A DNA stretch of 64,000 bases from Antedon bifida. Taxonomy: Eukaryota > Echinodermata > Crinoidea > Comatulida > Antedonidae. The stretch covers positions 6,388,501 to 6,452,500 of the forward strand of contig OY727094.1 of the NCBI GenBank assembly GCA_963402885.1. The letters run 5' to 3'. Each line of letters begins with the position of its first letter. Position 1 is the first letter of the stretch. This document shows, one piece after another, positions 26,714 to 56,020 of the stretch. The notes under the pieces are model-generated. The model did not search any database and was not told the DNA's origin. It worked only from the letters and a program-made list of their open reading frames with translations. A program made the translations under genes and the position numbers.

Positions 26714-26838
26714 ATGAGTTCTTACTTAACTTTACCGTCTCCTGAAGTGAAAATGAGAAAGAATAGTTCGGTGATGCCGCCTGTCGTTAAGCGAACTTTT
26801 GCACCGTTGAGACCAAGGTCGAAATCGGTTGGAACAGC
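26714..26838 (+). CDS. Alternative first exon, 41 residues, basic/proline-rich
   Basis: The ATG sits in CACCATGA, a good initiation context, with an in-frame TAA a few codons upstream. The frame runs 41 codons plus 2 nt to AGC/GTGAGT, a strong donor in phase 2. The peptide starts MSSYLTLPSPEVKM and continues with Val/Pro and a basic tail containing RPRSKSV, which may be a phosphorylation motif. The phase matches the LIM exon at 1421. It could therefore splice to 33182, giving Ala-Cys at the joint and only the second half of the LIM domain, or skip to a later exon. It lies inside the 31.8-kb intron between the two LIM exons. Transcription from an internal promoter is inferred. No homologue was recognised. 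Confidence 0.7.
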
Positions 26839-26971
26839 GTGAGTTACAGTTTTTCTTTTCATATTTCTTTTCTCTTTCATTTTTTTTATATGTTTATGTG
26901 GTACTACATTTGTTGTCAATTGGTTGCATTAATTTGTTTTCATTTAAAAAAAAAACAAGAAAGTGTAGTTT

Positions 26972-27096
26972 AATACACATCACACTGTTTGTATGATTAT
27001 ACAGCACTGGTTAGACTGAACCATTGAAACAACCATTAAATCAGTAAAATAATGCAGTTACTGCAGTAGAATAATTGTGTATGATCCATGAAAACA
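26972..27096. mobile_element. Family C element, right half
   Basis: Carries TTTGTATGATTA and the right end GTTACTGCAGTAGAATAATT followed by CCATG. Confidence 0.5.
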
Positions 27097-28316
27097 TAAC
27101 TTATTAATATTAATAAGATATCTTCAATCTTATTACTACATTGAAAACAGATGAAATCGATACATTTTTCTAGCAAATCCTGGCGCCACCACTGGCACTA
27201 CTCAACCAGTAATTTCATCGCACTGGCAACAGTTGCTATTATAACATCGCGGCCTTCTCATTCTCAAGTTTGATGTAATGATCTAACAAGCTATGTAAAT
27301 ATTTGGTTGCTGGAAGAGATAATATGACCTTTTATCATGTTAATCAATAACTTAAGTGTTTGTGTGCGTAAGCAATTATAAAATAGTTGTTTCTTTTAGC
27401 AAATAAATCTTCAGTAGAAATTAGCAAATAGATAATTGTTAACTGACAAAAAAGTATAATAATTTACCGATATTTGAAGTTGTAGTTTTGTTATGACAAT
27501 AATTATTATTCATCTGCACAGTCAGAACAAATTAATATCCTAGTCAAAGGAACCCTATAAAATTCCATTGTGTCCTTAAAATTGAGGGAGGGAGATTGGA
27601 CAGAGTGGGAGAGAGATAGACAAAAATTGTCAAAATGTCATAACTGTTTCTGCTTTGTGAAAGTCATATTCAACTCAATTAACAACACTGGCAGCTAATA
27701 TAGACTCGTTCGTTAATATAGCACACTTTAACCACTTAAAAGTATGATATTGCCAGCTAATAATATAGAAATGCCAGAAGCCAATGTAGAGAAATATAAT
27801 TGTTTCAAAGCAAGGTACCTATAATCCTTGCAACCAATGAAATTGCTATCCAGTCATCGTACAGTATCAGAAAAAAATAGTTAATAGAAAAAAAAAATTT
27901 AGCTCCAGAATGTCAGTGGTTTTCAGGTTAAAAGTTTGGTTTTCAAGATATGTTTTGAATAATAGTAAAGAATTTTATATCATATGAAATCAAATCAATC
28001 TTTATTTCCATCATCATTATAAAAAAAATAAATTTAAGATTAAACCATATCATTTACAATACTTTTAACCACACTAAATAAGAGGTATATCCCTAAACCT
28101 CTTCAATTCAAGAAACATTTATTGACCAAAAATATTATATCATAACAATGGTTGGCATATAATATATATAGGCGAGAGACTACAAAAGGCCCAATGTCGC
28201 TGTAGTCCCTCTTTACATTATACAAATAATAATAATACAACACTTAATTAGCTGTTACGTACATTATATAAATGGAAAAAAAAAAGAAAAGAATACAGTA
28301 TCTTAATTAATTAGGT

Positions 28317-28450
28317 TATCAAACTTATGCCCAAATATGGTAGTCACATGCCAAAATATAATAGTGATATGACTTTATCATGTCCATTTTATGGGCAAAT
28401 AACATTTTTTTTGTCACATAAAGTTTGATATTGTACTAGACAGAGCTTTA
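28317..28450. mobile_element. MITE family A copy
   Basis: Left end truncated to TATCAAACT. Core and right end with AGACAGAGCTTTA are present. Confidence 0.7.
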
Positions 28451-28942
28451 AGCCAAATACACCCCCACATTCCCACCCTCACATGTTTCAACAACACCCG
28501 CACACTCAAAACAAATTTTCTCGCATTATGATACAGATATCAATATATTCCACTGAGAAAGTTAGGCAATAGATTGTACAGAGAATATGAATGTTAGATA
28601 TATTTTCCAAGGTTAGTGATATATCCCATATGTAAATAAAGGTGTTGCGTTACAGTAATAATACAAGTCAACCATATTAAAATCTATTGATTTACATGTC
28701 AAGTTATTATTACCCAAGATTGTTTTATGAATTAAAATCAATAATTATCAAATGGTGGGGGTGTTGTAAATGTCAGAGGTTGTTTTAAAGGGTAGAGGTC
28801 ATGCATAATATACAAAACTTGTTTCTTTATCCAGGGGTGATATAAATACTTTGAAGATGCAAAATGTTATGTTTATGGTATCATACTTATCAAACAAATG
28901 GTGGGGTGAGGGTTTAGGGTTAGGGGGAATTATACAGTTCCG

Positions 28943-28955
28943 AGGTCAAAGTTCA
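28943..28955 (+). promoter_or_regulatory. DR1 nuclear-receptor-like site
   Basis: AGGTCAAAGTTCA is a direct repeat of AGGTCA-like half sites with 1-bp spacing, the RXR/HNF4 type. It sits inside the diverged tandem repeat. Confidence 0.35.
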
Positions 28956-29098
28956 TGAACTCATATTTACCATATATCATTTGAATTTGTGAAATTTATA
29001 TACAGTATATATTTTTTGTATTAATATGCAATATAATAACATCATATCTATCTAATTGTAATTTAGAAGTTGTGGCTGTGGGGTAGGGGAGGTTACAG

Positions 29099-29111
29099 AG
29101 GTCAAAGTTCA
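29099..29111 (+). promoter_or_regulatory. DR1 nuclear-receptor-like site, second copy
   Basis: The same AGGTCAAAGTTCA occurs 156 bp downstream in the next repeat unit. Confidence 0.35.
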
Positions 29112-29695
29112 TAATATCTTATAATATCTTTTTCCCACTGTAAGCATACACATTTTGTAGATTTTATTTTAATTATAGCTATACTTGCAAGGCATGAAAT
29201 TGTATACTATATTTTTCAATTGATATGTAATCTGAAATCGAATGATTCTGCAAGGTAAAACATCAAATTGTAGTTTCAGTTCTTGAAAAAATAATAAGAT
29301 AAGAAGAATAAAACAAATATCGCATAGGAATCCAATACTCATAAAATGTAATTAAATGAATACAGTTTGGAAAGCGCGTCTGTTTGCATTCCTGTAAAAT
29401 GTAATTTCATGTTTTTATTCTAAAACCGACCTGTTGTTTGTGTTGTTTTATAACTGTTCTACTCCGCAGCTAAAAATGTGTGCTGTCTCTTTTAATCATA
29501 GGGCGCAGTTTAAAATCACAATTACAGGATGGATAAACTATTCTATAATTTATTGTGCTTATAAACCAAGTCTCATTTGAGGCTTGGGACTGGAGTTGTG
29601 AGTTACAACCCTGGCACTAGTAGGTAAAGTATAGTTGTTGCAACATTTTGGTTGTTACTGTATGCTATCGCTTCTGAAGAATGCATTTATAAACC

Positions 29696-29845
29696 TAAAG
29701 CTCTGTCTACACTATCAACCTAGTTTGACAAAAAAGTGTGATGTGCCCAAAATATGGTTGTGATATGTATATCATTATGTCCATATAATCGGGTCACATC
29801 ACATTTTTTTGTCACATAAAATTTGATAGTGTGGACAGAGCTTTA
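29696..29845. mobile_element. MITE family A, near full-length copy
   Basis: Both terminal inverted repeats are almost identical: TAAAGCTCTGTCTACACTAT at the left and GATAGTGTGGACAGAGCTTT at the right, about 150 bp apart. It carries no ORF, which is usual for a non-autonomous element. Confidence 0.85.
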
Positions 29846-30305
29846 CTAGTAATATTAATAATAAGATATTCGTACCAGTTATTAGACTCTGATGAACAAA
29901 ATGTTGGACATGTATTTCTTAAATCAGTTGATTTAATTTCCAAGGCGTAGGCTAGTAAACCAAATAACTCTAGTTTAAAATGTGTCAGGTATATCAACGT
30001 TTCCTCTCATTAAATATTGCTAAGTAATTTAAATCAACAGTTTTATGTTATAAAAACACATAAATCTTGGAGAATTGACTCCTTGCCTTCTGTAAGGCGT
30101 GTGTTGGCAAACGTAGACTCGCATAAGGAATATCGTTAACATTTAAAGTTCACGTAGAAGATTGTGAGGTGGGTGGCGACAAACGAAGGTATATCAATTA
30201 TCTGTGAAATATTAAGACTTAACATGTTGAATTGTAATAATAATTATAATAATTTAAATTGTAGGAATACAAAATAAGATTATTATCGATCTTCATTATG
30301 TTTCC

Positions 30306-30332
30306 ATGTGGGTGTTGATTAACTACCCACAT
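30306..30332. other. Short hairpin ATGTGGGT/ACCCACAT
   Basis: Perfect 8-bp arms flank GTTGATTAACT, itself close to an HNF1-like half site. Confidence 0.5.
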
Positions 30333-33181
30333 ACAATATTATTTCCAATGAAGTAAAAATATAAAAATACTGAAGTTGTTTTTATATCATTCTTAAATCA
30401 ATAGAATGGTAAAACAGTATTTGGCTCCACATACTTGTCCACTGAAAACAACAGATAACAAAAAGATCAATGAACTAGCCCAATAATAGTGAATGCACAC
30501 AATCTATTCAAACAGTTAAAAAAAAAAACCCCAAACCAGAAGTTACTGACAGTACAAAGTTGCTGCTAGTAGGGGAAGAGGGTGCGGGAGGAGGTGGGGT
30601 TTCCTTTCCTCTAGGATCTCCGCTAGTGAAATTATTGGCTACTGAACAAGGCATTTGTGCAAATTCCTATTGCTAAAAGTCACTATCTTCTAGACTCAGC
30701 ACAGTGGTATATATCAATACAGTAAATATAAAACCTATGTATTTCATCTCTGTTTATGAACTATTATATCTTTTATTTCATTAGGCCACAGGGATAATTC
30801 CATTCCCTTGGCAGGGGTAGTGGAGATTGAATTTAATAATTTTGTATTCATGTTATCTTACTTGGAAACACAAGCCAAATGTTGTTTATCCACCTAACAT
30901 ACCAACACTACTTAAGTTTATGATCGTAAGCTTTTATAATCTTAGATTTGTATTTCTAAATTTAGACAATTTTATTACAGCATTTATTGAAGCTAATAGA
31001 CCTTCTGAATCTGTCAATAAATAGTATAAGTATGTAACATTTTTCTTATGAATACAAACATAGAATGAACCAACAGTCAAGTATCAAGGTATTAAATCAT
31101 AATCGTTCGGTCTGTGTTCTTCTTGATCGAGGCAAAATTGGTCAAAGCGCATTGGCCAACATGTCAAGATGTATTCTCAGTACTGTACGTCGTATTCTGC
31201 AGTATTTTTTTCTTAACTTCAAATTTTCTACAATATTATAAATGTTCTACACATGTACTACTGGTAAAGAAATTTAGGATTTGGACCTAGAGTTCATGAT
31301 ATAAATGAATAGTACAGTTAGTAATTTTATTTAAAAGAATAACACTAACAGTTTTGGAATTGAAAAAAATATATAGCTCTTGCAATTTTTCTAATGATGA
31401 AAACACTATATTTGACAAGAGAAGTGCTGGGTATACAAATGAAAGAGTACTGTCTGTCTGTCCGTTGGGACGAGGCAGTGTCATAGGTCAGTGCAATATC
31501 TTGGTGAGGTTCCAAAAATAGTTTTTAGTCCTTCCAATGATTTAGTATGTTTTTATTTATGTTTACAATGTAATATAATTTATTTTATAATAAATATAAA
31601 AAAAATGCAAATTTGATCTTTTCCTGAGGCCAACATTGAGATAAAAGTATGCTGTTATATATAGTCAGATTTCATTTCTTGATTTTCATTTCTATTATCC
31701 AATTCAATTTTATACAAAATTAGAAGTTTAATTGACAAGCATACCATTTTGACAAAATGAGAATGGTTTATTTAATGTGTTTGTTTATGTAAAACAAATG
31801 TATGCTGCAATGTAAAGTTGATTCATGGCTTTGTATTACTGCGTATTAATCATCGTTAATAATTCATAATTACCTTGATGAATCGAAAGTAGAACAATAC
31901 GAATGTCAAGTTTGAAATTTAACCCCTGATGATGGTGTGATTAAATCGCAATACATTCTGTCAATGATAATCATTAATAAATGACGATTCTGTGCATAGT
32001 TTACTCTTTGCTTCGTTTTTGCGCATAAATTAATTAAGATTAACGATGTGATTTCAGAAAACTGTAAATTTTAAAATGAGTAATTGGAATGTTTTGTAGC
32101 TGATTAGGACATAATTTCTTTAATGGCTCTATTAACAGGGCAATATTTCTAACAACTAAACATTTATTTTAACTGTAATTATATTTATACAAAATTTGTA
32201 CAATTTTTCTGTCAAAACAAAATTTTTTTTTAGCCAAAAATATTTAAAATTCTATGGTGCGTGATGAAAATACAAATAATTCTAAAATAATTTGAAAGGA
32301 TTTATAAAATTGTTTAACATTTTTTAATGAATTTACAAATTTACAATAAAGCATCTTCTTTTATTCCTGAGTATCATACAATATTTAAATAAATTCCACA
32401 CTGGCAAGTCTTATTTACTAAATTTATCCTCAATATTTTCCCACAAAGTTACTTAGCCGTCGGTGAAGTTTACAAATTGTTTCGCTACAGTAAACTTTTT
32501 CTAAAGCTTTCTCCGACTAAAGTGGCAAAGAAATATTTGGATAACAGTTTATTTTACCCGATTAAGAAACTACCTGATAAATACTTCATTGATCTGTGAG
32601 ATGCAGTCGATTAAAGAAGGAATTCGTAAAACCCGCTTTGAAAGGCTTGTCAATAGGCGTTACATGATTACATTCCTAAGTAGTTGACTTGTTCAACAGG
32701 TAGCGATCGTTGAGTTAATTTACTCTAAGTACTGGCCTCAGTGGGCCTAAAGTGATGCACTGAAGGGGATTCTAATTGGACTCAGTCAACCGTAAAAACA
32801 AAACTTTTTCAGAGTTGTTCTAATACTTTTCTGTGTTAATTAACCGGATTAATTGGAATTCTCTGCGTAATTGGGTTCATGTTGTTCTGTTAGCCCCCCT
32901 AAGACGCAATTTATTTTTTGTGGGTGATTGACTGATATGGTTACGCATGACTGTTATGTTTACTAAAGATTGATAATCGCCGTTATTTTGAGAATATTTA
33001 TGAGAGTAGTTTCAAACACATGGTTCTTATTTTCACTCTAGTTTCTTGGGACTATTTTTTCTCTCTGAATAAAACAAGACTAATTACATAAAAGTAACAT
33101 TGATACAGTGGATTTAGTTTCTGTGCATTTATCATTACATGACTTCGTTTTGATAATCATGAATTCTTTATTGGTTCGCAG

Positions 33182-33220
33182 GTGTGAAAGGCCGTTGCAT
33201 GTGAAGGGATACATTGAAAG
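33182..33220 (+). CDS. 39-nt internal exon continuing the LIM domain
   Basis: This exon has an acceptor ending TTCGCAG (AG at 33180-33181) and a donor AAAG/GTAAGC at 33221. It enters and leaves in phase 2. The first G completes the Lys codon begun at 1421, and the next codon is Cys, exactly the sixth LIM ligand expected after C-x2-C-x2. The 13 codons read C-E-R-P-L-H-V-K-G-Y-I-E plus a split Arg/Ser. The Cys-x3-Leu spacing fits the start of the second LIM zinc finger. Ligands seven and eight must lie in the next exon, which was not found here and is probably beyond 64000. Both splice sites, the phase and the motif agree, so the exon is well supported although it is tiny. Confidence 0.85.
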
Positions 33221-34891
33221 GTAAGCAAGGATTTTCTCAATTTAACATCATTTTAGTAATAAAAATATTTAACTTAATAATTAACATTGAAATCTAGTAG
33301 TGCTAGTACTACTAAATAATATTAAAGTTTGGTGAAAACATTGATGTTCATGAGAAATATATATATCAAGACCGTAGCCAGGATTGGTACAGTAGGATTA
33401 TTTAGTCAAACCAAAATCACTTGACTTCGGTACCAAATGGCAAAAGAGGTTAATATTGTACTATTAGGCCAAGAAGTAGTAAATGAATTTTTCTTTTGGC
33501 TCAGAAAGAATTAGACAAACACATTTTCATGAGCTAGACCTATTTATTAGCACATTTGCTGCTGCTCTTTGAGGTCTCTAGTTGAAAAGTACTTCAGAAA
33601 TTATTTCAAAGTCTGGAAAGGTTAATGTTTACTGGGGAAGCACATATAAAAATGCGAAGTTCAGCACTTAATTTTCACAATGTTTACGTCCTCGGCCCCC
33701 TATTTCAAAATGCAGGATCTGACAACGACTGAAAAGCAATAATGTTGATTATTCAAGATTGAGAAAACACTAATGGTTGTAAGAAAATCAATATATATAT
33801 AAAATTATCAGACATATGCGATAATCATTTATTTGGCAATGTAGGAGAGTAAAAATTCAACCTTGGAGAAGATGACATAAACTGAAGACAATTTTTATTA
33901 GTAATGAGACGTGAGTCAAGGGATTCACAGACTGGAAAAAAGTGCAACCATTCAACTGTAAATGATGATGTATAAAATTCAAATTCTGTGAAAATTACAC
34001 ACGCAGATGGCAAGGATGAGCATATCCCCATTTGCATTTTTTGTATCTACCTTACAGCTATTTTTTATAGTATTATCTAAGATAGATGATGGAAAATATT
34101 TTCATTATTAGTTAGGGAATCATCAAGGTTGACCTTATCATGACCCATGTATGACCCATGTATCTTGGCTTAATGTTGGATATTTTTTCATCTCTTCGCA
34201 TTTTATATTAAAACTATTCAAATATATTCGTCTCTCTGAAATTATTCAACTTAAATTTTTATGATCAATATTTATTGTGTCTGTTTGATGATATTCATTA
34301 ATTTCATGTCGAAATTAAAGGTTGAAAATTTCTGAAAATGTATATATTAGGAAAACATGGTTTTTCACTTTACCTAGTAAGAATTGTAAATTAATATTAT
34401 GCACATTTAAATCTCTTTTTGAGCTCTACACCTGACTCTTCCTTTCTCTTCTAATTTGATCTTCCTTCTTCTTCTACTAATTCACATCCTTATTTCTTCC
34501 TTCATTTTAATTCTACAATATTACACCTGTGATTTCCACTTATTCACACTTTTTCAACTACTTTTTCTTTTTTCTTTCCATCATACTCTGTGTTATTCTT
34601 AAACAATTGTTACTTTTTCTGTCTCATTTCTCCTCCACCTATGTTTATAAAGATGCAGTAATTTAGTAGTAAAATGATTCCTCTAAGAAATACATACACA
34701 TGCACATAAATAAATTAAAAGACATTACATATACTTTCTTGTTAGTTATATATTACTATTTGAATAAACACATTCATTTGACAAGAGTATTTTGTAGTTG
34801 ATTTATATGGCAATTAGGATACCCTTGACATTGCCTTGGATTAGCCAGTTCTTACATTAGATAGAAGCAGTGCCTGGCTATGGATATTCCC

Positions 34892-35322
34892 GCATGTAGT
34901 GCTAGGGATGGATATCACATGTAGTGCTAGGGATGGATATCACATGTAGTGCTAGGAATGGATATCACATGTAGTGCTAGGGATGGATATCACATGTAGT
35001 GCTAGGGATGGATATCACATGTAGTGCTAGGGATGGCTATCACATGTAGTGCTAGGGATGGCTATCACATGTAGTGCTAGGGATGGCTATCACATGTAGT
35101 GCTAGAGATGGATATCACATGTAGTGCTAGGGATGGATATCACATGTAGTGTTAGGGATGGATATCACATGTAGTGCTAGGGATGGATATCACATGTAGT
35201 GCTAGGGATGGATATCACATTGGGTGCTAGGGATGGATATGACATATAGTGCTAGGGAGCGATATCACATGTAATGCTAGGGATGAAGGTCACATGTAGT
35301 GCTAGGAATGGACATATCACAT
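34892..35322. repeat. 25-bp minisatellite, about 17 copies
   Basis: Unit CACATGTAGTGCTAGGGATG + GATAT. Central copies are nearly identical and the last four diverge, so homogenisation has acted mainly in the middle. Confidence 0.9.
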
Positions 35323-37233
35323 GCTATTCAACTTCATCTGGTTTTCTAAACCCTGGAGACAAGTGTTGGTTTTCATGCCTAAATTAAAGAAGCGGGTGTT
35401 CACGCTTCGTTGATTTTATTAAATGAACTTGTAAAATCACAGTACTTTGATTACTTTTCTAATTGGGTACCTGACCTGATTTTGTTTCCATTTTACGGCC
35501 TCTATTTGTTCTTGACATTTCTCATAAATCATTTGAAATGGAAGACCTAGACTGGTGTTTGTTGTCTTCCCCGTATTGTCCTTGCACTATGGTGGTGAAT
35601 GGTTATATTTAACTGCTTCCTCTCTCTGATTTCTTCCATATGCTGTATGTACTGTGGGTTGGTTCATCAATCTTATTGGTCCCATATGCAGTCCTAGGGT
35701 CTGTTTTTGTGAAAACCAAATAATTGATTCAATAATGTGTAAATAACATTTCCTGAGCAGAGCAGAAACAGTAGTGAAAGTTCTAATAAATGGACTTAAA
35801 CTCATGACAATTTTTTGGCAAATCCTCATTTTTATCTTCAGTTGCTTACGCTTACACTTGCTCCTTTTGCATTTTGAGAAATTATGAAGTTTGGATTTGT
35901 TTGGTATTATGCATCAGAAATGAAATGTCTCGCCTCACCAAAACCTTGATTTTAAAATAATTCAAAAGCTTTATGATACTGTATAAATAAATGCAATATT
36001 GCAATACATGAATAAAAAAATATAATATATGTCAGAGTTTAAGGATGATATTATTATATCGTCTTTTATTCTGTAGTTATGTCAAAGTTGTGTATGAACA
36101 GCTGACAGCAACAGTATACTATTGAAAAATAACATTTTTTATGTGAAAACATCTTTTCAACAGCAATAATTCACTTTTTCCATTCCATTTAAGTCAACCT
36201 TTTTCTTTCGTTTTCTACAAGATCAATAACACACAACGATTTTTAGAAGATTAGTGATTAATTGTGATAAATTATTTGTAAGCCAATAATAATAATAATA
36301 ATGTGTTGTTGTGCAGCGCAGCTATCACTATGTGTGAAATTCGAATTGATTATCCAACAATTTTATATAGTAAATGTTATGATTTCTAGTTTGACAGCTT
36401 TTGTGCATTTAGGAAATTACACTAGATCGTTTTGCATCCAAAATCGAAGATAATTTCCAAAAAGGAGGAAATTAAATAGAATCGTTCTAAATTATGTTGT
36501 TTTCAGTCGAAGTTATGAAGCAGATTTTTTTCAATCAGAGGAAGATTTTTTCCATTTTCATTTTATTATCTCATTGGTTGGTGGCTATTAGTTAAATCTA
36601 CCAGCTTATATCTTGATATTCCGTACATTTGTGAATCTTGTAGTATTTTTTTTTATCTGCCTCTCAGACGTTCAGAGAGTTCACATTTGATTGTTTATCA
36701 AAAACTCTTGAATCTCTGAAAACCATTTCGTGCCTAGAATACCCGGATAAACTAATAATAGCCATTTTATTCCTGGAAAGAGAAATATGAGTATTCTTTG
36801 AACTTATCTTTACCGATAATGGTCTAGCTTGCAATTTCCTTTTAGTCGAGTTTATACAATCTGAGAAATTGCCACAATATTTAAGATTCGTGGAATATAT
36901 GTTTGAGTAGTGTATAGGAGACTTCATAATCTCAAATATATACTGCGATACTTATTGTAACAAACTTAGTATACGCTGAAAAAAATATTAATTTATGAGT
37001 AAATTATTTAAAATATATAAATTGTACTCTGTTCATACAGTAATTGAAGAACAATGAGTTATTCAAGATGTATAAATTACAATACAAACGTAGGATTTGT
37101 TGCCTGTGCCTTCAACCTGAACGTTCATTATGCATGGGTTAAGTTACAGTGACAGTTTACTTGTGTACCTGTAGCAAAATAGCCAAGTATTAATTTTTAA
37201 AAGTCAAACAATTATTATTGTAATTTATTCAAG

Positions 37234-37247
37234 GTTACCATAGTAAC
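37234..37247. promoter_or_regulatory. X-box (RFX-type) motif
   Basis: GTTACCATAGTAAC fits the RFX consensus GTNRCC-N(0-3)-RGYAAC exactly. RFX factors control ciliary and other genes. Function here is not shown. Confidence 0.4.
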
Positions 37248-39314: not shown

Positions 39315-39340
39315 TATTATTATTATTATTATTTTATATC
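39315..39340. repeat. TTA microsatellite
   Basis: Seven or so TTA units. Confidence 0.8.
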
Positions 39341-40469: not shown

Positions 40470-41010
40470 ATTCTATGCACACTTAAATCTAGTGTGTGCG
40501 AACACAACTTTTCTGTATGATTGCTATTCTTACAAAACTTAATTATTTGTGTGTATTAGTGTGTATGAACACAGCTTTAACTCTATGCAACTTTAACTCT
40601 AGTGTGTGCGAACACAACTTTTCTGTATTTATTTATATTTGTGCATATCAGTGTGTTTGAACACAGCTTTAACTCTATGCAACCTTAACTCTAGTGTGTG
40701 TGAACACAACTTTTCTGTATTTATTTATATTTGTGTGTATTAGTGTGTTTGAACACAGCTTTAACTCTATGCAACCTTAACTCTAGTGTGTGTGAACACA
40801 ACTTTTCTGTATTTATTTATATTTGTGTGTATTAGTGTGTTTGAACACAGCTTTAACTCTATGCAACCTTAACTCTAGTGTGTGTGAACACAACTTTTCT
40901 GTATTTATTTATATTTGTGTGTATTAGTGTGTTTGAACACAGCTTTAACTCTACGCAACCTTAACTCTAGTGTGTGTGAACAAAACTTTTCTGTATAATT
41001 GCTAATCTTA
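40470..41010. repeat. 92-bp minisatellite, about six copies
   Basis: The motif AGTGTGTG recurs at 40491, 40601, 40693, 40785, 40877 and 40969, giving 110 then four times 92 bp. Each unit carries two GTGTG-N-GAACACA motifs and a TTTCTGTATTTATTTATATT stretch. Confidence 0.9.
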
Positions 41011-43642: not shown

Positions 43643-43738
43643 ATGGTACGAGGCAAACAACATTGGATAGTTGAAGGTGACTGCTTTATTTGGATTCCGG
43701 TGGTATTGACAAGCAACGAAATGCAGGATTCGTGGTGA
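43643..43738 (+). CDS. Upstream ORF of 31 codons overlapping the 43738 start
   Basis: ATG at 43643 starts 31 codons ending in TGA at 43736-43738. The last base of the stop is the A of the main ATG (TGATG). If transcription begins upstream of 43643, ribosomes would meet this uORF first, and the overlapping stop/start could allow termination-reinitiation or repress the acidic isoform. A TATA-like TTTATAATTAAA lies at 43632-43643, so a start downstream of it could exclude the uORF ATG. Existence of the frame is seen. Translation is inference. Confidence 0.35.
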   Translation: MVRGKQHWIVEGDCFIWIPVVLTSNEMQDSW

Positions 43739-44252
43739 TGGATGTTACAAACCGAAAAGATACCAGTTTGGTTGAAAATGATCATGGTATTGGAATACTT
43801 AACAACCAGGAATTGAACATGGAACGCCCTGAAAAAGACTCTTATCGTAATGCAGCATTTTTGGAAGATGATGGTGAAAAAATAGAAGAGAAAGAAAATA
43901 GAATTATAACAGACCAAAAAAAAGAAGTTAACATAATTGATAAGGATGCTAACGAAAATCTTGCTAATGAAAATGTCGATGAAATCGCCAACGATGACGA
44001 TTTAGTTACGGATTCGATATCAATAACAATTAATTTTGACGATGATAAATGTAAAATACCTAATAATGAAACAAACACATTTCAAGAAGATGGTGCTATC
44101 TCCATGGCAACGACGACAGATGATAAACTGAATGCGATGGCTATTGCCTCGGGTTCGGAAAACACCTTCAAGCACGATATCGAGTGCACGGCTCACTTTC
44201 AGAGCGCACAATGTGAAATTATGATATCATCTGTAGATGAAGAAACCAAAGG
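43738..44252 (+). CDS. Alternative first exon, 171 residues, acidic disordered N-terminus
   Basis: The ATG at 43738 opens a 171-codon frame plus 2 nt, ending at AAAGG/GTAAGC (donor at 44253, phase 2). The same frame is closed by TGA at 43678. Between that stop and the ATG I found no AG acceptor in the phase needed to follow a phase-2 donor, so a first exon fits better than an internal one. The product is strongly acidic, rich in Asp, Glu, Asn and Lys, with no recognisable fold and few hydrophobic stretches. It is GC-richer than its flanks and lacks repeats. It has the same donor phase as the upstream LIM exons and so probably splices to a shared downstream exon, giving a LIM-less isoform. A uORF overlaps its start. 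Confidence 0.75.
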
Positions 44253-45017: not shown

Positions 45018-45118
45018 TTTAAGAGCCTTGTCTGTGTACAAACTTCAAATTTTAAGTATTTTATTTTATTTAAATGCTGTACAAGCAGCGCATTCATTCA
45101 TCATCATCATTGATTTTG

Positions 45119-45280: not shown

Positions 45281-46649
45281 AGATTGTGCTTTACTGGTAA
45301 CCAGAGAAAAAATAATACATTCTAGAAGCTATGCTTGTGAAAATATAATACCCCATTATACTGTATAGTAATATGATAATATATTGCAATATTCGTTCAA
45401 AAATAAAAAGAGTAAAATATTATTCGCATTTAGATGTTTAGAACAATATATAAAAACAATGCTACAGTATTTAGTTTGCAAGACTATTTGTGTTTCCTAT
45501 CATTTTATTTTGTCAAATTTATGGCAAAATTAAATTTTCTACATTGTGGCATAGTGTTCTTGTTTTTTAACAATTTACTTTACCAATGTTGCTCACCAAC
45601 TACTAAATACAGACTAGATAAAAACATTTAAATAAAATGATAAATCATAAAATGTGGATCATTATAATTCATATTTTACCTATTTTTTACTTTTATTCAA
45701 TAATGTTCTTTATAGCGCTTATTGCACAATGCTTCTAAGCGCTTCACGTTATTACCCAGGTCATGTTTTGGATTAAACACGTATGAAAACATACTCCCAT
45801 TAAATGCAGCTAAGTAAAACAGAATCATATCAAAATTTAATGTTCAAAAAACAACAAATTAAGATCATTAATTAACCAAAATCTCATAAACTAATTAGTA
45901 TTTATATCAAAAGTAATCATATCATCATGTTTTAATAAAAATATTGAAGTACTTTATAAATTAAATTTGTAAATGAAACGTAAAAAGTCTTAATAGTGTT
46001 GTTATTAAGCTACATTATGTACCATCATGAGTGGAGTATGTTTCATAATTGAAGTTGACTAATGAATCTTTTAGTTTATTGTTTACATCCTCCACTAGTA
46101 TAATAAATATTTTATCGATAGATAAGCACTTAATTATTTTATTTACAAGGAAATGTTCTAGTACAAACATTTATATTTAGACATATTATTAAGAATTATT
46201 ATTTTTATTCTATTTTTATAACATACACTACTGTATGTGGAAATCTTCAAAGACATTTTTGCTTCGTGATTTTTAATCCTCAATCTACGTCATTCTCTTA
46301 AGGCCGCAAGTTGAGGCCGTAACCCATGTCGTTTTCTCGTGGATAATGATGTTAAACAATACCAAACGCAAATACTTAATGGACTAATGCATTATGGGCA
46401 GTGTTTTACTTTTGTCATTTTAGCTTTCAATTTATTCTGTCCAGCAGACTAAATAATGATAAATTATTCAATACATATAAGTTCTTCAATCCAAATGTAA
46501 GTTTAGCGGATTGACATTTGAAAATGTTGTTTTTTTTAGCATGTATCGGTCAATGTATGGTAATGAATTGGAAAATCTTACAAATAAAATAAATTGGTAG
46601 ATTTTACTAACTTCTTGAAATGAAATGAAATAAAAAAAAACTATAAGTC

Positions 46650-47400
46650 TGCATGATACAGCACTAAAGAATATGTTACAGTAAGAAATCAAGTTGTGAT
46701 AGCTTTAGAGTTGAATCCAAATGATTAAGTGTTACTTCCTACATTCATTCCATACATAGTCTATAGTAGTAGTCTGAGTTTGTATGATACAGCACTATAT
46801 AGTATATGAATCAAAAAGTATTAAAGAAATTATGTTGTGATAGCTTCGGTAGTAAAGCCAAATGGTTAAATCAGGTGATATTAATTGGTACTTCTTTCAT
46901 TGTACAGAATGCAATACAAGTCTATAGAAAACATGTGAGTTCGCATGATACAGCATATTAATCAAAAAGTATTATGTTGTGATAGCTTCAGTATTAAAGC
47001 CAAATGGTTAGAGTTGATTATTTGGTAAGATTTTACTAACTTTTTTCAATGTACCAATTGCAATAAATATTTGACAGAAAAATGTGAGGTTGCTTTAATG
47101 ATCACTGAGGAATAGGAATATGGATCAATACCTACATTAACAAATCAAGTTGTGATAACTATTGTGATGAAGCCATATTTGGGCACATCTTACCCTTTTT
47201 TGTCAAACTAGTTTAATAGTGTAAAGAAGATTTTACAGACTTCGTTCAATATACAGAAATTGCAATAAATATTCTATCATCAACAATCATTATTTGTGCA
47301 TGATACAGTACTAAATGATGAAAATCAAGATGTGATAGCTTCGGTACTGATGCTAAATTGTTAGATAAATTCAATACGCAATATATTTATTATTTTATTT
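46650..47400. repeat. Diverged tandem repeat, about five copies of 140-180 bp
   Basis: GCATGATACAGCA, GTTGTGATAGCTTC and AAGCCAAATGGTTA recur. The GTTGTGATA motif lies near 46693, 46832, 46975, 47149 and 47329. A MITE half-copy lies in the fourth interval. Confidence 0.7.
47171..47234. mobile_element. MITE family A, half copy
   Basis: Only the right half remains: ATATTTGGGCACATC, a T run, then TCAAACTAGTTTAATAGTG. It lies inside a diverged tandem array. Confidence 0.5.
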
Positions 47401-49227
47401 AAAAATTTCTCTGTGAAAGATTTCCAACCAGATGGGGGTTATACCCAAGAAAGATGTTTGACCATTATAAAATGTTCTGCGTAGTCAGTGGTCAATCATA
47501 AAGGACTTTTCCAGATGGTCATGTTGATAATGTTTTTCCAGATGCCACATCAAAATGTGAACAAAGCATTAATTAAGTCTATTAGACTTTAAGCGTGGGT
47601 TCACACTGCAACATACCACACACATGTCTATATCATATAATGTACAAATCCAGTGATTAGCCATTATCGTCCTAATTTTTTAAGATCTATTTCCGTTTGA
47701 CATTTGCTAACTGTCTTTAATGGACCTCCTTATTGCAAGTCTACAAATTATTAATGTGTCAATCCTATTAATTCTTGAATAATACTTTTACTGTTTTGCC
47801 TTGTCGCATGTCCGTGCATAAACTTGGCGTCGTAATACTCAAACTGGACTGCAAGATCAACCCGTGATAAGATACAAACAAAAACAACTGTTCCATTACA
47901 CAAAACATGAATAAACTTCAATAGAGATAAGATTGTTTTCGTTCAGTTAGTGGGTGCCAGCGATTTTAACTATTTATGTAGTGTAGAAAAATATTATGAG
48001 ATATTTGTTATATAATGTCTAATAATGGCCTTCGCACTTAAAGTGTTGATAAAGTCACTAATTATAGATGGTGATAAGTAAGTACTTGCTTAAGACTATA
48101 AACCATGTTTTTTGTTATCCATGTTTATGCGTTAATGGAGACGTGTTGATCTGCAGGCATTTGCTAAACCAGAGGCTTCAACAGCGAGTTTCTAGTATCT
48201 AGGGTAGTTAAATCCATTGAGGCTATTCTAAGCTATGTGAAGACATTACATCAATCCAGGGTAAGATTTTTAAATTTTAGTAGAAGTCATTGTGGTTTTG
48301 TGTATACCGCCCTCAACTTTTGCTTATCATTAAAGGGATCCATTGAGCAATACAGCCTTTTTAATGATATTTCTATAATATTTTCTATTACTAACAAAAG
48401 CAATTGAATTCTTTCTGGTTGTTTTACTTTTTGGTTTTTTGCTTATTTTATTTGTATCTCAATTAAGAGACCCACAGAATTGTAATTTTTTCTTTTTTTT
48501 TTTTTTATTAACAAATACAAATATAATATAACTCACAGCATATCGAATTTAGATTTTGTCACTATTTAGAACCGTCTTATTTTGGGAAGCATTAAAAATA
48601 AACATTACTTGAATAATCATACTATACTTTATATGCTTGTTTATACATTATTTCACTGTATATATATAATGACAGTACATTATTCTTGTTAAGTTTGCAT
48701 ACCAAAAACTTCTCCAGCTAGTGTACAGTTTAGCATTTTTGTTTACAGACACAAGAATTAATGAACGCTTTTATGCAACTATGTCAAAACAAAGCTGTTT
48801 ACTGGAGTAATTCAAGCTCTTGGTTTTTTGTATATATTATGACAAACCAACGTTGTCCTAGATTTAAACTTTCACAGTAAAGCCACTTGACATTTTGTGG
48901 TATTTTCAAGTCATATATCTATAATTAAACATATTGGATATATTGTATACATAATTACAAAACGGCTTCAAATAAATCCCTTTTAACGTTAAATAATCCA
49001 GTAATCCGAGTATAATTATTTCAGATACTTTGTCATTTAGTGAAAATCTTGTGAAGTAAATACTGCGCCGTTCCTTATTTAACAAGTAGAAATGTTTTTG
49101 TATAATGTGAGAGGTGTGGCCTGTTGAGTTTTTGTTTCTATCTAGTACCGTAGTCTTTGTTGATTTGTTTCGAACTTGCGGTTCCTTTCTTTCTTGGAGT
49201 ACTTTTAGAATTTAGAATTTCTTTAGG

Positions 49228-49348
49228 GAACATATCAAAACTATTTTACTGCAGTAACTACCTTTTTATTGCAGTAATGTTTGACTTTAATCTGTTTTAA
49301 TGTACGAGTTTTTTAGTCAGTCACTGTAATAAAAATTATATGATTACA
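49228..49348. mobile_element. Family C element, left half
   Basis: AACTATTTTACTGCAGTAAC, ATTGCAGTAATGTTTGA and ATATGATTAC occur in the family order. Confidence 0.5.
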
Positions 49349-49399
49349 CAAAAAAGTTGCATACTTATATAACTTGTTTCTTAAAAAAACAAAACATTT

Positions 49400-49985
49400 T
49401 TGTATTGGGTAATTTTAAAAATAGAATTTTAAGAATAATTATATAACAAATGATTATTAAATAAATATTCATTTCATTATTTATTTGGTCTATTTCAGTA
49501 TATATAAACAAAATAAAATTGAAATTGGGGAGACCAAGGTCAACCTAAGTGAACTTAATCAATGTAGCTAAGCCGGTTGACCCAACCCCAAAGTCAGTTT
49601 ACACATAAAAGACACAAAATACAGTTAAAGCGAAATAAATATTATTTATTATTAATTATTTCAAAGAAAAGGTTTAATATATCCTTGTATCTATGTTGTC
49701 CTTAGGTAATTTAAACACAGAATTTTAAGAATAATTATAATAGGAGCAAATGGTTATTACATAATAATATTTAATATTTAATAACAATTATTTCAAAGAA
49801 AAGGTTTAATATATCCTTGTATCTATGATGTCCTTATCTGTATTGGGTAATTTAAAAATAGAAACTAAATATATATATAAATAATTATAAATAAGAGCAA
49901 ATGATTATTAAATCAATAATATTTAATACTAATATTTCAAAGAAAATATTTAATATATCCTTGTATGTTGTCCTTGTCACAGAAT
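49400..49985. repeat. Diverged tandem repeat of about 135 bp, three to four copies
   Basis: ATTTCAAAGAAAAGGTTTAA, TATCCTTGTATCTATG(T/A)TGTCC and AATAATTATAA..GAGCAAATG repeat in the same order. The first copy is separated by unrelated sequence. Confidence 0.7.
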
Positions 49986-50584
49986 AATTAAAAGTTATTA
50001 ACACAAATTTGTCCTTATAGTATTAATATTACTGTCGATAAGGATATTAATTTTTTTTATATTTGTCCAAGAACAAGGTTACTCTCCAACAGAAACAGCA
50101 CTAAAGCCCATACTAAGTGTCAATATATATGGGATATATTGTGATAAAGCATTTGGCAAGAAGTCAATTTTTAAGTAATCATTTTTTTTTCTGACACAGG
50201 AATGTTTTTTTTATTTATAATTATTCCTTATTTTTGTACAACCACAACCCATAGTGACATGATACTATTGCACTGTTTCCAAGAAAACTGTGCTCTAAAG
50301 GCGTGTTGGATCCAATGTAGGAGGGGATCTAGCATTGTTCAATGGGCTAACGCTAACATATAATAATATACTGTCAAAAATGGATATCAAAATAGAAGAA
50401 GTGTCACTCTATAATACTTAAGCCTTTAAATCCGCTAAGTCTAACTACTTATTATACTTCTTTATATTGAAAAAAACCACCTCATACAATAAGTTCCTGT
50501 AATAATATTAACCAATAGGAATCACCAATCCGGTACTGGTATCTTAATATTCCGGGAATAGTTTTATGAGGAACTTAAAACTCA

Positions 50585-50590
50585 TATATA
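50585..50590 (+). promoter_or_regulatory. TATA-like box before the 50679 first exon
   Basis: TATATA sits about 94 nt before the ATG at 50679. A start about 30 nt downstream would give a leader of roughly 65 nt. The region is AT-rich, so the match alone is weak. Confidence 0.25.
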
Positions 50591-50678
50591 CAGTATGAGT
50601 GGGCCAAATTTGTATTAGTTATAGTATTTACTACATCGGATAATATTGTGCTGTATAGCTTTTTAGTTATTAGTCAAA

Positions 50679-50734
50679 ATGGAACTAATTAGTGTAAAAG
50701 AGAAGAGGGAACTATTTAGTATGTCGGCAGATAT
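50679..50734 (+). CDS. Short alternative first exon, 18 residues
   Basis: ATG in CAAAATGG (purine at -3, G at +4) is followed by 18 codons, MELISVKEKRELFSMSAD, plus 2 nt, then a perfect GTAAGT donor at 50735 in phase 2. An in-frame TAG lies five codons before the ATG. A TATATA at 50585-50590 would place a transcription start roughly 65 nt before the ATG. An AG after a pyrimidine run (CTTTTTAG) also precedes the ATG, but it would give phase-0 entry, which does not match the phase-2 donors upstream. The exon is short, so chance cannot be excluded. The phase agreement with four other exons is the main support. Confidence 0.55.
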
Positions 50735-51030
50735 GTAAGTAAATATATATAGTCTCAAAAAGTGTTACAATATAATCGTATATCATTACTCTAAATAACC
50801 AATGTATATATTTTGTAATTAATATTTTTTTGTAAAAATCTCTGCACTACACGTTATTATGGTATTATTATGAATTCACGATAAGATTGATTGAATAAAG
50901 TTCTAAAGAAACAAATACTGGAAATGAATTAATTATAAACAGCATAAGGAAACTAAGGCTAACGAAACAAATTAGGCAAATGAGTTAGGAATTTTTAATT
51001 TTTTGGAAACAATGTTTTAGTGAAGCAAAC

Positions 51031-51140
51031 TATGTAACAAAAAAATGAGATGTACCATGGACATGATGATGTCATATCACTACCATATTTGGGTAAATTA
51101 CTTTTTTTGATTACTAGTTTGATAGTGTATACAGAACTTA
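51031..51140. mobile_element. MITE family A, diverged copy
   Basis: Contains the ATGATGTCATATCACTACC core and a decayed right end, GTTTGATAGTGTATACAGA. Confidence 0.6.
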
Positions 51141-51206
51141 ATCTTTTTGTTTTGTGTAAGAAATTCTTTTTATCAAACCAATGGTAGCAGTTTTTGTTTC
51201 TTATAT

Positions 51207-51340
51207 GCGACTTCGATAACTCCAGAGGCGCCCTATTTACAAGGTCAATTGGGACAAAAATTTACATCATCGCGCCTATGGAACTTTTTTGTCCCGATTT
51301 ACCTTTTAAATATGGCGCCCTCTGGAGTTATCGAAGTCGC
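51207..51340. mobile_element. Foldback element with nested inverted arms
   Basis: The outer arms GCGACTTCGATAACTCCAGA... and ...TCTGGAGTTATCGAAGTCGC are identical over 21 bases and continue into GGCGCC after a one-base difference. Inside, GGGACAAAAA faces TTTTTGTCCC, and GTAAAT-like sequence continues the pairing. The whole 134 bp can fold into one long hairpin. Sequence on both sides contains TTAT, a possible but unproven target duplication. It is far more GC-rich than its flanks, suggesting a recent insertion. Confidence 0.75.
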
Positions 51341-51469
51341 TTATTGTTGTACAGGGAAGATGTTGGCTGCTTTCCCTTACAATATCCAACATATGTTCCT
51401 ACAATAACACATGTAGGATTGTGGGAATGATTTTTTAATTGGGAGATCAAAGTAATAATTCAGTAAAAA

Positions 51470-51650
51470 CCCTCCTTTGGAACAACCTTGTAGAGGACAC
51501 CCTATTGAGGGGTCACTTTCCTCCGAAAAACAAATGAGGAGAAATATAATTTTCACTACAGTCAACCCCTATTCAGAGGACACCCCTATTAAAAGGACAA
51601 TTTTTTGGGTTTAGAAGGTGTCTCCTTAATAAAGGGGTCTGCTGTATTAT
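51470..51650. mobile_element. Family B element, long copy
   Basis: Contains AACCCCTATTCAGAGGACAC and CCTATTAAAAGGACA in the middle and ends in AAAGGGGTCTGCTGTA. It has no coding capacity. Confidence 0.6.
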
Positions 51651-52179
51651 GAATGTGTTAGGGGTTACATGTTAAACGTTCATAATTTATTTTGAGGGGT
51701 CAATTGACCTCCCTGACCCTTTACTTCCTGTTATTATGTAGACATAGAACACAACAATCATAATATTGTAAATTATGAAATTAGACAAATTATCAAATCC
51801 AATTAAAACATTATCTAAAGAAAGAAATAATATAAAATTATCAGTGCAAACACATTACTACCATCTGTTGAAAACCTAAAAGAAACCTGTTGCCAAGTAA
51901 CAGGTGTTATGTCGTCTGCTAACTATGCGTGCATCGTCCGCAATCAATTTCCCAAATATTCATCACGCTGTGAATTGTGTAAGGTTGCAGAATATTAACA
52001 CCAGAGTTGGAGAATATCATTGTTATCTGAAAATATCTCATGATCTAAATCAATAATATTGATTATGATAGCCCATATTTTACGCTTTAAGATACATGAT
52101 TGATTGATACTATTCTGTTGAAATGGAGCATGTTAATGGGGTGATGTGTGATTTTATATTTTTAACTAAACAAACATTT

Positions 52180-52290
52180 AGAGACATTGTCCCCTAAAAA
52201 CATGAAAAATGAAGATTATTAAAATCAAACTTTGAAATAGATCATTTTGTAGTTTTAATCAAGTTATTCACTTACATGAAATTTCTCTTT
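52180..52290. mobile_element. MITE family D fragment
   Basis: ATTGTCCCCTAAAAACATGA and AAATGAAG, then ACTTTGA, CATTTTGTAGTTTTAATCAA and a TTATTCACTT match the element at 23829 in order. Confidence 0.5.
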
Positions 52291-52964
52291 CTTTTGATAA
52301 ATTGTATTTTGATAAATTGTGCTATGTGAACAAGGCTACGATAGTAGTAAGTCTACCTTTTCATGTTTTATCAAAAGAAAAAAAATACCAACACAAATAT
52401 TTAATATTATAAATAGTAAAAACTTCAAAATGTTATACTAAATATGTTTGAAATATTTATTTTTTGTGGTTGCTTCCTCATTATAAAACCGAACATGGAA
52501 CCTCTGTTTTACAGGAAGAGTCTTGATGCATAATACCATTTTGATATTCGTGTAACAGCTGTGTAGATATATTAAATAAACAAATAAATATTGCAGAATA
52601 GGCATGTGAGAGAGAAACTTAAAAATAAAATCGTAAAATATTTAATATTCTTGTATATCTTCTATTGAAAATCTACATTAAGAATTCATATTAAAATATA
52701 TTTTTGTTTTTTCTGTCATCATAAATAATTATTGTTAGATTTAATTCCTCGTTCCTAATAATAAAATCAATAAATTGTCAAATAAAACACATTATTTATA
52801 TAATGTTGGTAAGTTTTGCCACTCTGTGACCTACATAAAATGACATAGAAATATTACTGGTAGATTTTTTTTATTTAAAAAAACAGGTAAAACATATAAA
52901 AATAGAACTTGTTTTTGTTTGTATTCAAATGTGAACTATGAAGAATTTTTCTGCCAAGATGCTG

Positions 52965-53095
52965 TGTATGACCGAGTCCATAAAGTTTTAAAACTTTGAA
53001 TGTCTTCCCAGAGAAGAGTGAAAACTCCTCGTAATGAATGGTTAGAGCTGGATAGACCATCCTCGTAAAGTATTTATAAAAGAAAGATAATAAAT
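52965..53095. repeat. Dispersed repeat with AT-rich tail, copy 2
   Basis: GAGCTGGATAGACCATCCTC GTAAAGTATTTATAAA corresponds to the copy at 16396. Confidence 0.45.
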
Positions 53096-53276
53096 CATAT
53101 TTAAATAAAACATTTCATAATAAAATCCCAATGATGTGATGATGTTGCATGTACGCCATTTAATATATACGGCCAGCTTCGAAAATGAAAATGTTTAAAT
53201 AATATTTAATTAAAAAAACAATTGGAATGGTTCCAACATGGTTTTATACAAACATACATGTTTTTTACATTATGTA

Positions 53277-53325
53277 CTACAGTAGAGCCCCTTTTGGACA
53301 CCCCCCATTAAGGGGATACTTTCTG
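53277..53325. mobile_element. Family B element, left end
   Basis: TACAGTAGAGCCCCTTTTGG followed by CCATTAAGGGGATAC. The remainder is lost. Confidence 0.55.
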
Positions 53326-54359
53326 TCTATTTCGTGCCTAGCTTACCTGGATAAACCAACAAATGCCATATTCTCCTCGAAGAGCGAGACATTTTTCAGA
53401 AGAATTAGGGTGTAATTATCCTGGCATACTGGCCCATATCAGAACCTGAACCATAGAGCACCGATTTATTCTAGATCCTGGATGAATGATGATAGGGCTG
53501 TAAGAAATTAGTTGAAAACTGAACTGTCCACTCTAGCCAATCTATATAAACTCTTTGTCTAAAACATACCCAAATCTACTTTAAAACCCATGGCTGATGC
53601 TCTCTCTGTAAACTAAGATTTAATAATTTAACCTTTCTGAAATTTATCCATTGTCTTAACAAGACAGAAGAAGTCAATGAGAATAAATTTTAGTACGGCA
53701 ATATGTCAGAGCTAGAGAATTTTTATTGCCGTAATGATTTGAAGAATCTAACAAAAAAGTAATATATCTATATGAATTTATACTGCGATTATCTTCTATT
53801 TATATTTTGTGTAAATGAGACCATTAAATATGCGAACATTAGATATGCGAAAATATTCCTAAAGGCATTGTGTACTGTACTATAATTATTCAAGATTATT
53901 ATTACCATCGACTGATGCACGCCAATGTCAGAAATGTGCAAACCTAAACAAAATAATTTGAATTTCTCCTATTTTCCAGTTTTCAATAAAAATGTGAATG
54001 AAAAAACACTATTTTGATCAGTTGTTTTAGATATTGTTTTTCCATTTCTGCTGCCGTACAGAATGAAAATCATTCAAGCATGCAGTTAAGAAATTAGAAA
54101 AATAATGAGGCCTGTATCTTCTATTGCTAAAATGATTAGTGTTTTTTTCTTTTTGTAGTCTACAGAGAATGTAGATTTCTGTAATTTATTCATTACAATT
54201 TTTTTTGCTAAATATTATCAACACTCATCATCATCATTATTTTTAAGTTACGCATGGGCCAGTAAACTAGTTTTCTTACTCCCCCGAATTGTGAATGGAA
54301 TTTCTTTGAAAAAATTTACTGACCAAAATGGGCCAGTTACTGGAAGGTTTTAATACAGG

Positions 54360-54580
54360 CCCATCATGTTTTTACTGGCCCATCATGGGTTTTACTAGCC
54401 CGTCATGGGTTTTACTAGCCCGTCATGGGTTTTACTGGCCTGTCATGGGTTTTACTGGCCTGTCATGGGCTTTACCAGCCTGTCATGGATTTTTACTGGC
54501 CTGTCATGGGTTTTTACTGGCCCATCATGGGTTTTTACTGGCCCATCATGGGTTTTACCACTCTGTCACTGGTTTTTAAG
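54360..54580. repeat. 20-21 bp minisatellite, about nine copies
   Basis: Unit TTTTACTGGCCCATCATGGG with TAGCCCG and TGGCCTG variants. The long ORFs across it in two frames are products of the repeat. Confidence 0.85.
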
Positions 54581-54997
54581 CCAACACTGTAAAGTTACTA
54601 CCAATTTCTGCAACTCTTTTAAAAATGATTTTTTATTCTATTCTGTACTTTTAAAAAATATTGATAGAATAATATGGCAAATTTTATTTTATTTATATCT
54701 GGGACAGATTTTGTTATTAAGAGACAAGCACATTCTTAGATATGCATTTTTCAAAATGATATAAATCATAATTTGACAGGTATTATTGTATGCCATAATA
54801 TTTGACAACAATAACGATGGTTGTTCTAGCACTTCGTTGTCCTAAAACATAATGGGAATATGATATAAAAACAGAATGACATTCTGAAATATCAAAATGC
54901 TTTGAGACCCATAAATATGTTAGTCTTACTGTAATATTCTAAAGTCATATTAATAATCAGAATTGATAACAGCTACTCCCATAATTTATTCATGAAA

Positions 54998-55395
54998 ATT
55001 AATTTTGATTGGTTGATTAGTATCAATTTATTCAAAATGTCTAATTTTGATTGGTTTGCTATTATTTAATTTTATTTAGAAGTCTAATTTTTGTTGAATG
55101 GTTTGTGAAAGTTATCTAATTGTGATTGGATAATTAAAATTGTATTAATTACCTATAATATTATGTTATTTAATTGATCTACAATTGATAACTATTCTTT
55201 ATTAATTCAATTCAAACTCATGATTGATTATTAAATTATTCAAAAACTATTATTATTATTTTATTCAAAATGGCTTTATGTTGATTGGTTTGTTTTTAAT
55301 TTTATACAAAATACCTAATTTTGATTAGTTTATTGTTAATTTTATTCAAAATAACTCATTTTGATTGGTTAATTAGATTGATTGCTTATATTATA
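54998..55395. repeat. Diverged repeat rich in inverted CCAAT
   Basis: Units of about 50-60 bp built on TCTAATTTTGATTGGTTTG and TTTATTCAAAAT. At least six ATTGG (CCAAT on the other strand) fall in 400 bp. Confidence 0.65.
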
Positions 55396-55775
55396 AACTT
55401 AATGAAAATGTAGAATATATTCAAGGTGAGGCATGCGGTTTCTATGGTTATTGATCCAACGAATAAAGTTAATTATTAGTTTTTATCGTCTCAACCTTTC
55501 ATGCCATTTTGTTCTATTGCATTTACTCGAATATTAGGATCAGCGTGATAATTAGGTGAGAAATTAAATTGCAAAGTCCCATGTTTCATTTTAACGTCAG
55601 AAAAGAAAAGCAATCATGAAAAGTGCGTTTTGAACCGACGGTTCTGAAGGGAGAGAGAAGTATTGCAGTTGTTGAGGACGGATGTCGGGATAATGAGATG
55701 TGATGATGAAATACCATGGCTGTCAGAGTATTTCAACGCATTATTTATCAGAAATGTGTTTGATAAATAACACCC

Positions 55776-55783
55776 CTATATCT
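55776..55783 (+). promoter_or_regulatory. Weak TATA-like sequence before the 55848 first exon
   Basis: CCTATATC lies about 70 nt before the ATG. The 5' flank 55430-55847 is repeat-free and less AT-rich than its surroundings, as a promoter region would be. The exact start cannot be read. Confidence 0.2.
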
Positions 55784-55847
55784 TAGAGTGGTACGGACCA
55801 TTAGTAAACCGATTAACTGAACGTGATCGGTTATCGAATTCTCTAAG

Positions 55848-56020
55848 ATGTCAACTGAACTAAGAGGTTTTGAGAGAAGGATGTTTAGACTAACAAACCT
55901 ATCCCGAGTCTCCCCCTTCCCGTTTATGCCCCTGACTGAGGAACCGGAAGGCAATGACGTCCCTGAGGTAAACATTTTCGGTAAATGGATACGACGTACA
56001 CTAAAACGAACATGGAAAAG
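55848..56020 (+). CDS. Alternative first exon, 57 residues, basic amphipathic end
   Basis: The ATG at 55848 has an in-frame TGA eight codons upstream. It opens 57 codons plus 2 nt to GGAAAAG/GTATGT (donor at 56021), again phase 2. The peptide has a basic start with RMFRLTNLSR, a Pro/Phe stretch, an acidic middle (EEPEGNDVPE) and a basic, tryptophan-containing end, GKWIRRTLKRTWK, that could form an amphipathic helix for membrane, calmodulin or nucleic-acid contact. That role is inference only. The codon composition is GC-richer than the surrounding DNA. About 450 bp upstream lies a repeat tract rich in inverted CCAAT boxes. It probably joins the same downstream exon as the other first exons. 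Family not recognised. Confidence 0.65.

Follow-up and report, generated by a model that had tools for sequence, protein, structure and literature searches.

A Rap1GAP gene of the crinoid Antedon bifida with candidate alternative first exons in introns that split its LIM domain

Introduction

The PDE4 and plectin genes each carry several first exons on one body, and their proteins are unrelated to Rap1GAP; in LIMK2, the choice of promoter alters a LIM domain. Among GTPase-activating proteins (GAPs) for Rap1, human RAP1GAP (RAP1GAP1) is described with four variants, whose differences are concentrated at the N-terminus, near the GoLoco motif, and the N-terminal variants decide whether Galpha-o is bound in its GDP or its GTP state (PMC12329598). 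For human RAP1GAP, an alternative promoter is tabulated with the entry 'Yes' where other genes are marked 'No (5' UTR)' (UTR, untranslated region), which we take to mean that the protein is changed (PMC6143958). Further descriptions are of multiple alternative first exons with LIM-bearing and LIM-less forms for Ablim1 (PMC2885315), two isoforms and alternative promoters for LIMK2 (PMC8834001), and for human RAP1GAP2 an inhibition by 14-3-3 bound to phospho-Ser9 that is relieved when PKA or PKG phosphorylates Ser7 (PMC11139668). Here we analyse a stretch of 64,000 nucleotides from Antedon bifida (assembly GCA_963402885.1, contig OY727094.1, positions 6,388,501 to 6,452,500 of the forward strand), hereafter the window. 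An earlier note, made from its letters alone, had proposed four phase-matched alternative first exons of a single gene between positions 26714 and 56020.

Results

The window holds the 5' half of a Rap1GAP gene

The genome analysed comprises 315.6 Mb in 27 contigs, of which we used the window together with 99 kb of its right and 39.6 kb of its left flank. All coordinates follow the window numbering, also beyond 1-64000, and negative values lie in the left flank. Seventeen exons, all on the plus strand, join into one frame with a single stop and encode 1380 residues over about 121 kb (-446 to 120839). In this protein, Pfam profiles recognize the Rap_GAP catalytic domain (211.1 bits, 1.3e-62) and the Rap-GAP dimerization domain PF21022 (129.6 bits, 7.4e-38), both above cut-off, as well as an N-terminal GoLoco motif (31.3 bits, 1.4e-07, cut-off 25.1). 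The nearest chain in the PDB by sequence is that of Rap1GAP 1srq (E 7e-130, 436 bits). The window is the 5' half of one Rap1GAP gene, and GAP activity of the encoded protein on Rap1 is predicted from its domains.

The large exon E1 is coding from about -446 and occupies 1..1421 of the window; its 622 codons are in one frame, and it ends in the first part of a LIM domain with a phase-2 donor after 1421. As an acceptor-like TTTTCAG precedes its ATG by about 25 bases, a leader exon further upstream is likely, and E1 is perhaps not the start of the protein. The middle LIM exon E2 (LIM2; 33182..33220, CERPLHVKGYIE) is entered and left in phase 2. The remaining exons lie outside the window: E3 (LIM3; 100024-100096) is entered in phase 2 and left in phase 0 and holds the last zinc ligands (YCEDH), E4 (104283-104372) is entered in phase 0 and encodes the GoLoco motif, and E5-E17 (111159 to 120839) complete the Rap1GAP model.

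The LIM domain is thereby divided among E1, E2 and E3. The end of E1 together with E2 alone matches the LIM profile with 30.2 bits over positions 1-43 of 58, and in the long protein, with E3 joined, the match covers 1-53 of 58 (27.9 bits, 2.9e-06, cut-off 22.9). The best match in the PDB is a MICAL-type LIM domain, 2co8 (E 6.8e-07); zinc binding and the LIM fold are predicted from these similarities.

Four candidate first exons leave in phase 2

The four candidate first exons of the earlier note are on the plus strand. The first, at 26714..26838, has 125 coding bases (41 codons plus two bases), encodes a basic peptide with the motif RPRSKSVG and ends at a GTGAGT donor of 5.4 bits. The second, at 43738..44252, is acidic, with 515 coding bases (171 codons plus two) and a GTAAGC donor, and ranks best among the 102 candidates of the scan described below. 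The third, at 50679..50734, is the weakest of the four, its 56 coding bases (18 codons plus two) ending at a GTAAGT donor of 5.9 bits. The fourth, at 55848..56020, has 173 coding bases (57 codons plus two), a basic end (FGKWIRRTLKRTWKR) and a GTATGT donor. Positions, ATGs, GT donors and lengths were all as the note had reported them, and every length is 2 modulo 3, corresponding to phase 2; the donors of the LIM exons at 1421 and 33220, for which the note had also given phase 2, have this phase in the exon model. The common body that it had placed downstream of 64000 was found there, namely the LIM3 exon with its phase-2 acceptor and, after it in an unbroken frame, the GoLoco and Rap-GAP exons.

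The note had moreover remarked on the differing chemistry of the encoded N-termini. Exon 43738 is indeed acidic (isoelectric point, pI, 4.2) and exon 55848 basic (pI 11.2), and the description has to be extended by exon 26714, which had been listed as short and is basic as well (pI 11.6). Taken alone, the peptides of 26714 and 55848 gave no Pfam match, and what 43738 matched was insignificant. In 55848, a basic amphipathic helix is not significant, the moment being reached by 10% of shuffles, and a pattern search found no N-terminus resembling the human RKRSxxFG.

The phase agreement exceeds chance

First exons were scanned without regard to phase across 98.6 kb, by combining the first ATG after each in-frame stop with every donor of at least 4 bits at a minimum length of 45 bases. 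The score summed a codon model, a donor matrix and the base at -3, and the four exons were masked from the codon background. Among the 102 plus-strand candidates, 39 are in phase 2, 35 in phase 0 and 28 in phase 1. Phase 2 takes all of the first nine ranks: 43738, 26714, 55848, the LIM2 exon, 98065, 69015, 50679, 95783 and 86254. The minus strand yielded 77 candidates, the top eight of which have phases 0, 1, 1, 1, 1, 0, 0 and 1, and phases were mixed in four scans of the flanks, which may include other genes. In 150 Markov sequences, generated with the four exons unmasked in the background, a mean of 1.91 candidates scored at least 10 compared with nine in the real sequence. Their phases showed no excess of phase 2 (127 in phase 0, 85 in phase 1 and 74 in phase 2), and no sequence had more than six phase-2 items among its eight best candidates, a count reached once.

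With a donor limit of 6 bits, 43 candidates remained and ranks 1-5 were in phase 2; with minimum lengths of 45 or 60 bases and the LIM2 exon excluded, all 32 settings gave phase 2 at ranks 1-3 and 30 of them also at rank 4. The donor matrix of all scans includes one misplaced donor, as E15 was ended three bases early. A chance agreement of the phases is made unlikely by the phase-blind scan and its minus-strand, flank and Markov controls; the earlier estimate of about 1 in 80 for such a match was reasonable, and the identity of phase withstands the phase-blind test.

A shared acceptor is predicted at 100024

Because E3 accepts phase 2 and E4 phase 0, only first exons with a phase-2 donor can be joined to E3 in frame. 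Internal exons were scanned from 1.5 to 112 kb with an acceptor of at least 4 bits and a donor of at least 5 bits, and E2-E6 scored 26.2-42.7 bits (E6 with its start 91 bases early) compared with 22.1 bits for the best unrelated item. The E3 acceptor reached 30.5 bits, and the runner-up that is entered in phase 2 and left in phase 0 (76720-76765) scored 18.2. No other acceptor of these phases ahead of the GoLoco exon scores as high, which makes the E3 acceptor at 100024 our predicted common splice target. The thresholds would lose three of the 13 internal exons of the model (E7, E12 and E15 with its early border), so that there may be further shared exons with lower scores. The final LIM ligands are located in E3, downstream of all first-exon candidates. 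Pfam found no LIM match in the three alternative-start peptides that hold E3 without E1 and E2; presumably the products of internal starts have no LIM fold, because they retain the last pair of zinc ligands only.

Further candidates and RxRSxS sites

The phase-blind scan added two plus-strand candidates outside the window, a short phase-2 first exon at 69015-69064 (MELSWVAILCTPVKRS) and a phase-2 first exon at 86254-86345 (MLSIKAKNRLLKHSPLVLRKRSNSLPEVYS), which is basic and carries the 14-3-3-like site RSNSLP. By peptide class, 43738 is acidic, 26714, 55848 and 86254 are basic with pI above 11, and 50679 and 69015 are short. The weaker additional phase-2 candidates 95783 and 98065 are probably due to chance. 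When nine regions (the eight candidates and LIM3, with 150 bases on each side) were compared by blastn with 202.6 kb around the locus, only 86254 and 98065 gave extra matches, both past the donor, and the other seven matched themselves only. The segment 26600-26900, the sole region for which a genome-wide copy number was measured, has one match.

Mode-1 14-3-3 motifs have the form RSxSxP, which RSNSLP of 86254 fits, and the letters around Ser7 and Ser9 of human RAP1GAP2 are RKRSVS. Translation of 1430-100000 in six frames gives 183,071 residues, among which RxRSxS (or RxKSxS) has two matches, each lying in frame within a candidate exon: RPRSKSVG in 26714 and RKRSNSLP in 86254. The pattern is absent from 43738, 50679, 55848 and 69015 by pattern search, and E1 contains the similar RRSVS. 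Phosphorylation and 14-3-3 binding at these sites are putative, by analogy with the human protein.

Other features of the region

Long intronic tandem arrays are located at 34893-35323, 40544-40996 and 57177-57805, with periods of 25, 92 and 93/187 bases. A minisatellite of 20-base units at 54354-54558 contains a repetitive open frame, and an ATC-rich array at 60155-60425 is open on both strands. Outside the window, the stretch from about 79400 to 83300 reaches a CpG observed/expected ratio of 2.36 compared with an intron mean of 0.61, and this region of 79-83 kb contains no tandem repeat with a score of at least 80. On the minus strand, at about 152959-153878, open frames with RG/RY-rich sequence resemble a Y-box protein gene.

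Discussion

On these grounds we consider it likely that N-termini are swapped on the Rap1GAP body of this gene and that internal starts remove the LIM domain. That each start is transcribed, that its exon is spliced to E3 and what each N-terminus does are inferred from the sequence. A start upstream of E1 would lead to E1-E2-E3 splicing and a LIM-GoLoco-RapGAP protein of about 1380 residues. Internal promoters would lie before 26714, 43738 and 55848, probably also before 50679, 69015 and 86254, each with an ATG exon of its own whose phase-2 donor would be joined to the E3 acceptor (100024); for exon 26714, E2 would be an alternative target. The LIM-less products would consist of their own N-terminus, 24 residues of E3, the GoLoco motif and the RapGAP domain. 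By their N-terminus the forms may be distinguished as carrying a LIM scaffold, a PKA/14-3-3-like RxRSxS site, a strongly basic stretch or an acidic one, and the swapped ends would determine where the GAP acts, and hence where Rap1 is inactivated, and how it is switched. For the more specific proposal, that promoter choice in one Rap1GAP gene selects between one LIM-scaffolded RapGAP and five or more that have no LIM domain, the first exons lying in introns of the split LIM domain and some of them carrying a PKA/14-3-3-like site, we regard the chances as evenly balanced.

Several observations weigh against accepting all of these exons. Both the codon model (1251 codons) and the donor matrix, the latter with generic pseudocounts, were trained on this gene alone, and the coding signal is modest, with -0.01 to 0.52 bits per codon in the leave-one-out analysis of 14 exons. 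Seven minus-strand candidates exceed 10.5 bits, one of them antisense to exon 26714, so that some plus-strand candidates are likely chance items. When the minimum length was lowered to 30 bases, all 16 settings placed a phase-0 item third or fourth, and other phases followed from sixth place downwards; at a minimum of 21 bases, with the four exons unmasked in the background, the phase-0 item at rank 4 is a second frame inside exon 55848 with the same donor (55985-56020), and the item of the 30-base settings is taken to be the same. The donors of 26714 and 50679 score below 12 of the 14 proven donors scored, and both exons are lost when at least 6 bits are required, while the donor of 86254 has 4.8 bits. 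CpG enrichment near the candidate ATGs reaches only suggestive percentiles. As the RxRSxS test was chosen after the peptides were known, its outcome is support and not proof, and RSxSxP has one further match, on the minus strand. A narrower model, in which only 43738, 55848 and perhaps 26714 are real and 50679 and the weaker extras are chance phase-2 open reading frames, is a serious possibility to which we give slightly less than even chances, its probability overlapping that of the favoured model. The mere 18 codons and weak donor of 50679 fit such a reading, as do the roughly 1.9 candidates of at least 10 that chance yields per 98.6 kb in the Markov sequences, the seven on the real minus strand, and candidate 98065, where CpG is low around and downstream of the ATG and a repeat match follows directly after the donor. 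Chance items should mix phases, whereas all eight candidates besides the LIM2 exon are in phase 2.

The exons 26714, 43738 and 50679 might instead be small intronless open reading frames or separate genes within an intron, each ending at a stop that overlaps the apparent donor. When read through, all three stop directly at the junction (GCG TGA, GGG TAA and ATG TAA, respectively), as such frames would. We nevertheless find this unlikely: the two strands contain 895 ATG open reading frames of at least 18 codons, of which 18 carry a donor of at least 5.3 bits at the stop and one carries a donor of at least 11 bits, and in 55848, 69015 and 86254 the frame stays open across the junction. Even less probable is that 43738-44252 is an internal cassette exon with an acceptor at 43856. 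This form of the exon takes rank 1 in the internal-exon scan and has an acceptor of 7.1 bits, but it would be entered in phase 1, and the upstream model exons E1 and E2 both leave in phase 2; furthermore, the reading from the ATG retains 39 more codons of open frame and a higher coding score (45.2 versus 32.2 bits).

If the favoured model of swapped N-termini is true, one invertebrate-like Rap1GAP could be directed to several places and switches by the choice of start, and the LIM domain, as a head on this GoLoco Rap1GAP, would link Rap1 control to LIM partners. It would also hint that N-terminal diversity, as seen in RAP1GAP and RAP1GAP2 of vertebrates, arose before the two split. On the more specific proposal, one gene would combine several modes of regulation, of which at least the N-terminal variants near the GoLoco and the 14-3-3 switch occur in different genes of vertebrates. 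In 26714 and 86254 the serines of RxRSxS are two residues apart, as are Ser7 and Ser9 of RAP1GAP2 (PMC11139668), with the difference that here the site would occur in some starts only.

A LIM and a Rap-GAP domain are combined in one protein in the PXN-like protein of Capsaspora, which has four divergent LIM domains of the paxillin class and is described in the cited passage without mention of GoLoco (PMC3305314), whereas the gene studied here encodes a single LIM domain with its best PDB match in a MICAL-type one. A LIM-GoLoco-RapGAP gene with first exons inside the split LIM domain was not found among the literature matches listed; several of these contain both terms (such as PMC9385026 and PMC6156499), and the absence is only weakly supported. 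Ablim1 and LIMK2 belong to protein families other than Rap1GAP. Human RAP1GAP shares the body of GoLoco and Rap-GAP and differs in that the present gene has about six predicted first exons and a LIM domain, a term ('lim domain') absent from PMC12329598. Alternative RAP1GAP promoters are already known in human, and the LIM form on a GoLoco Rap1GAP looks unusual, being new as far as found. PDE4 and plectin, to which the earlier note had compared the locus, are fair analogies of layout; human RAP1GAP and Ablim1 are the closer comparisons.

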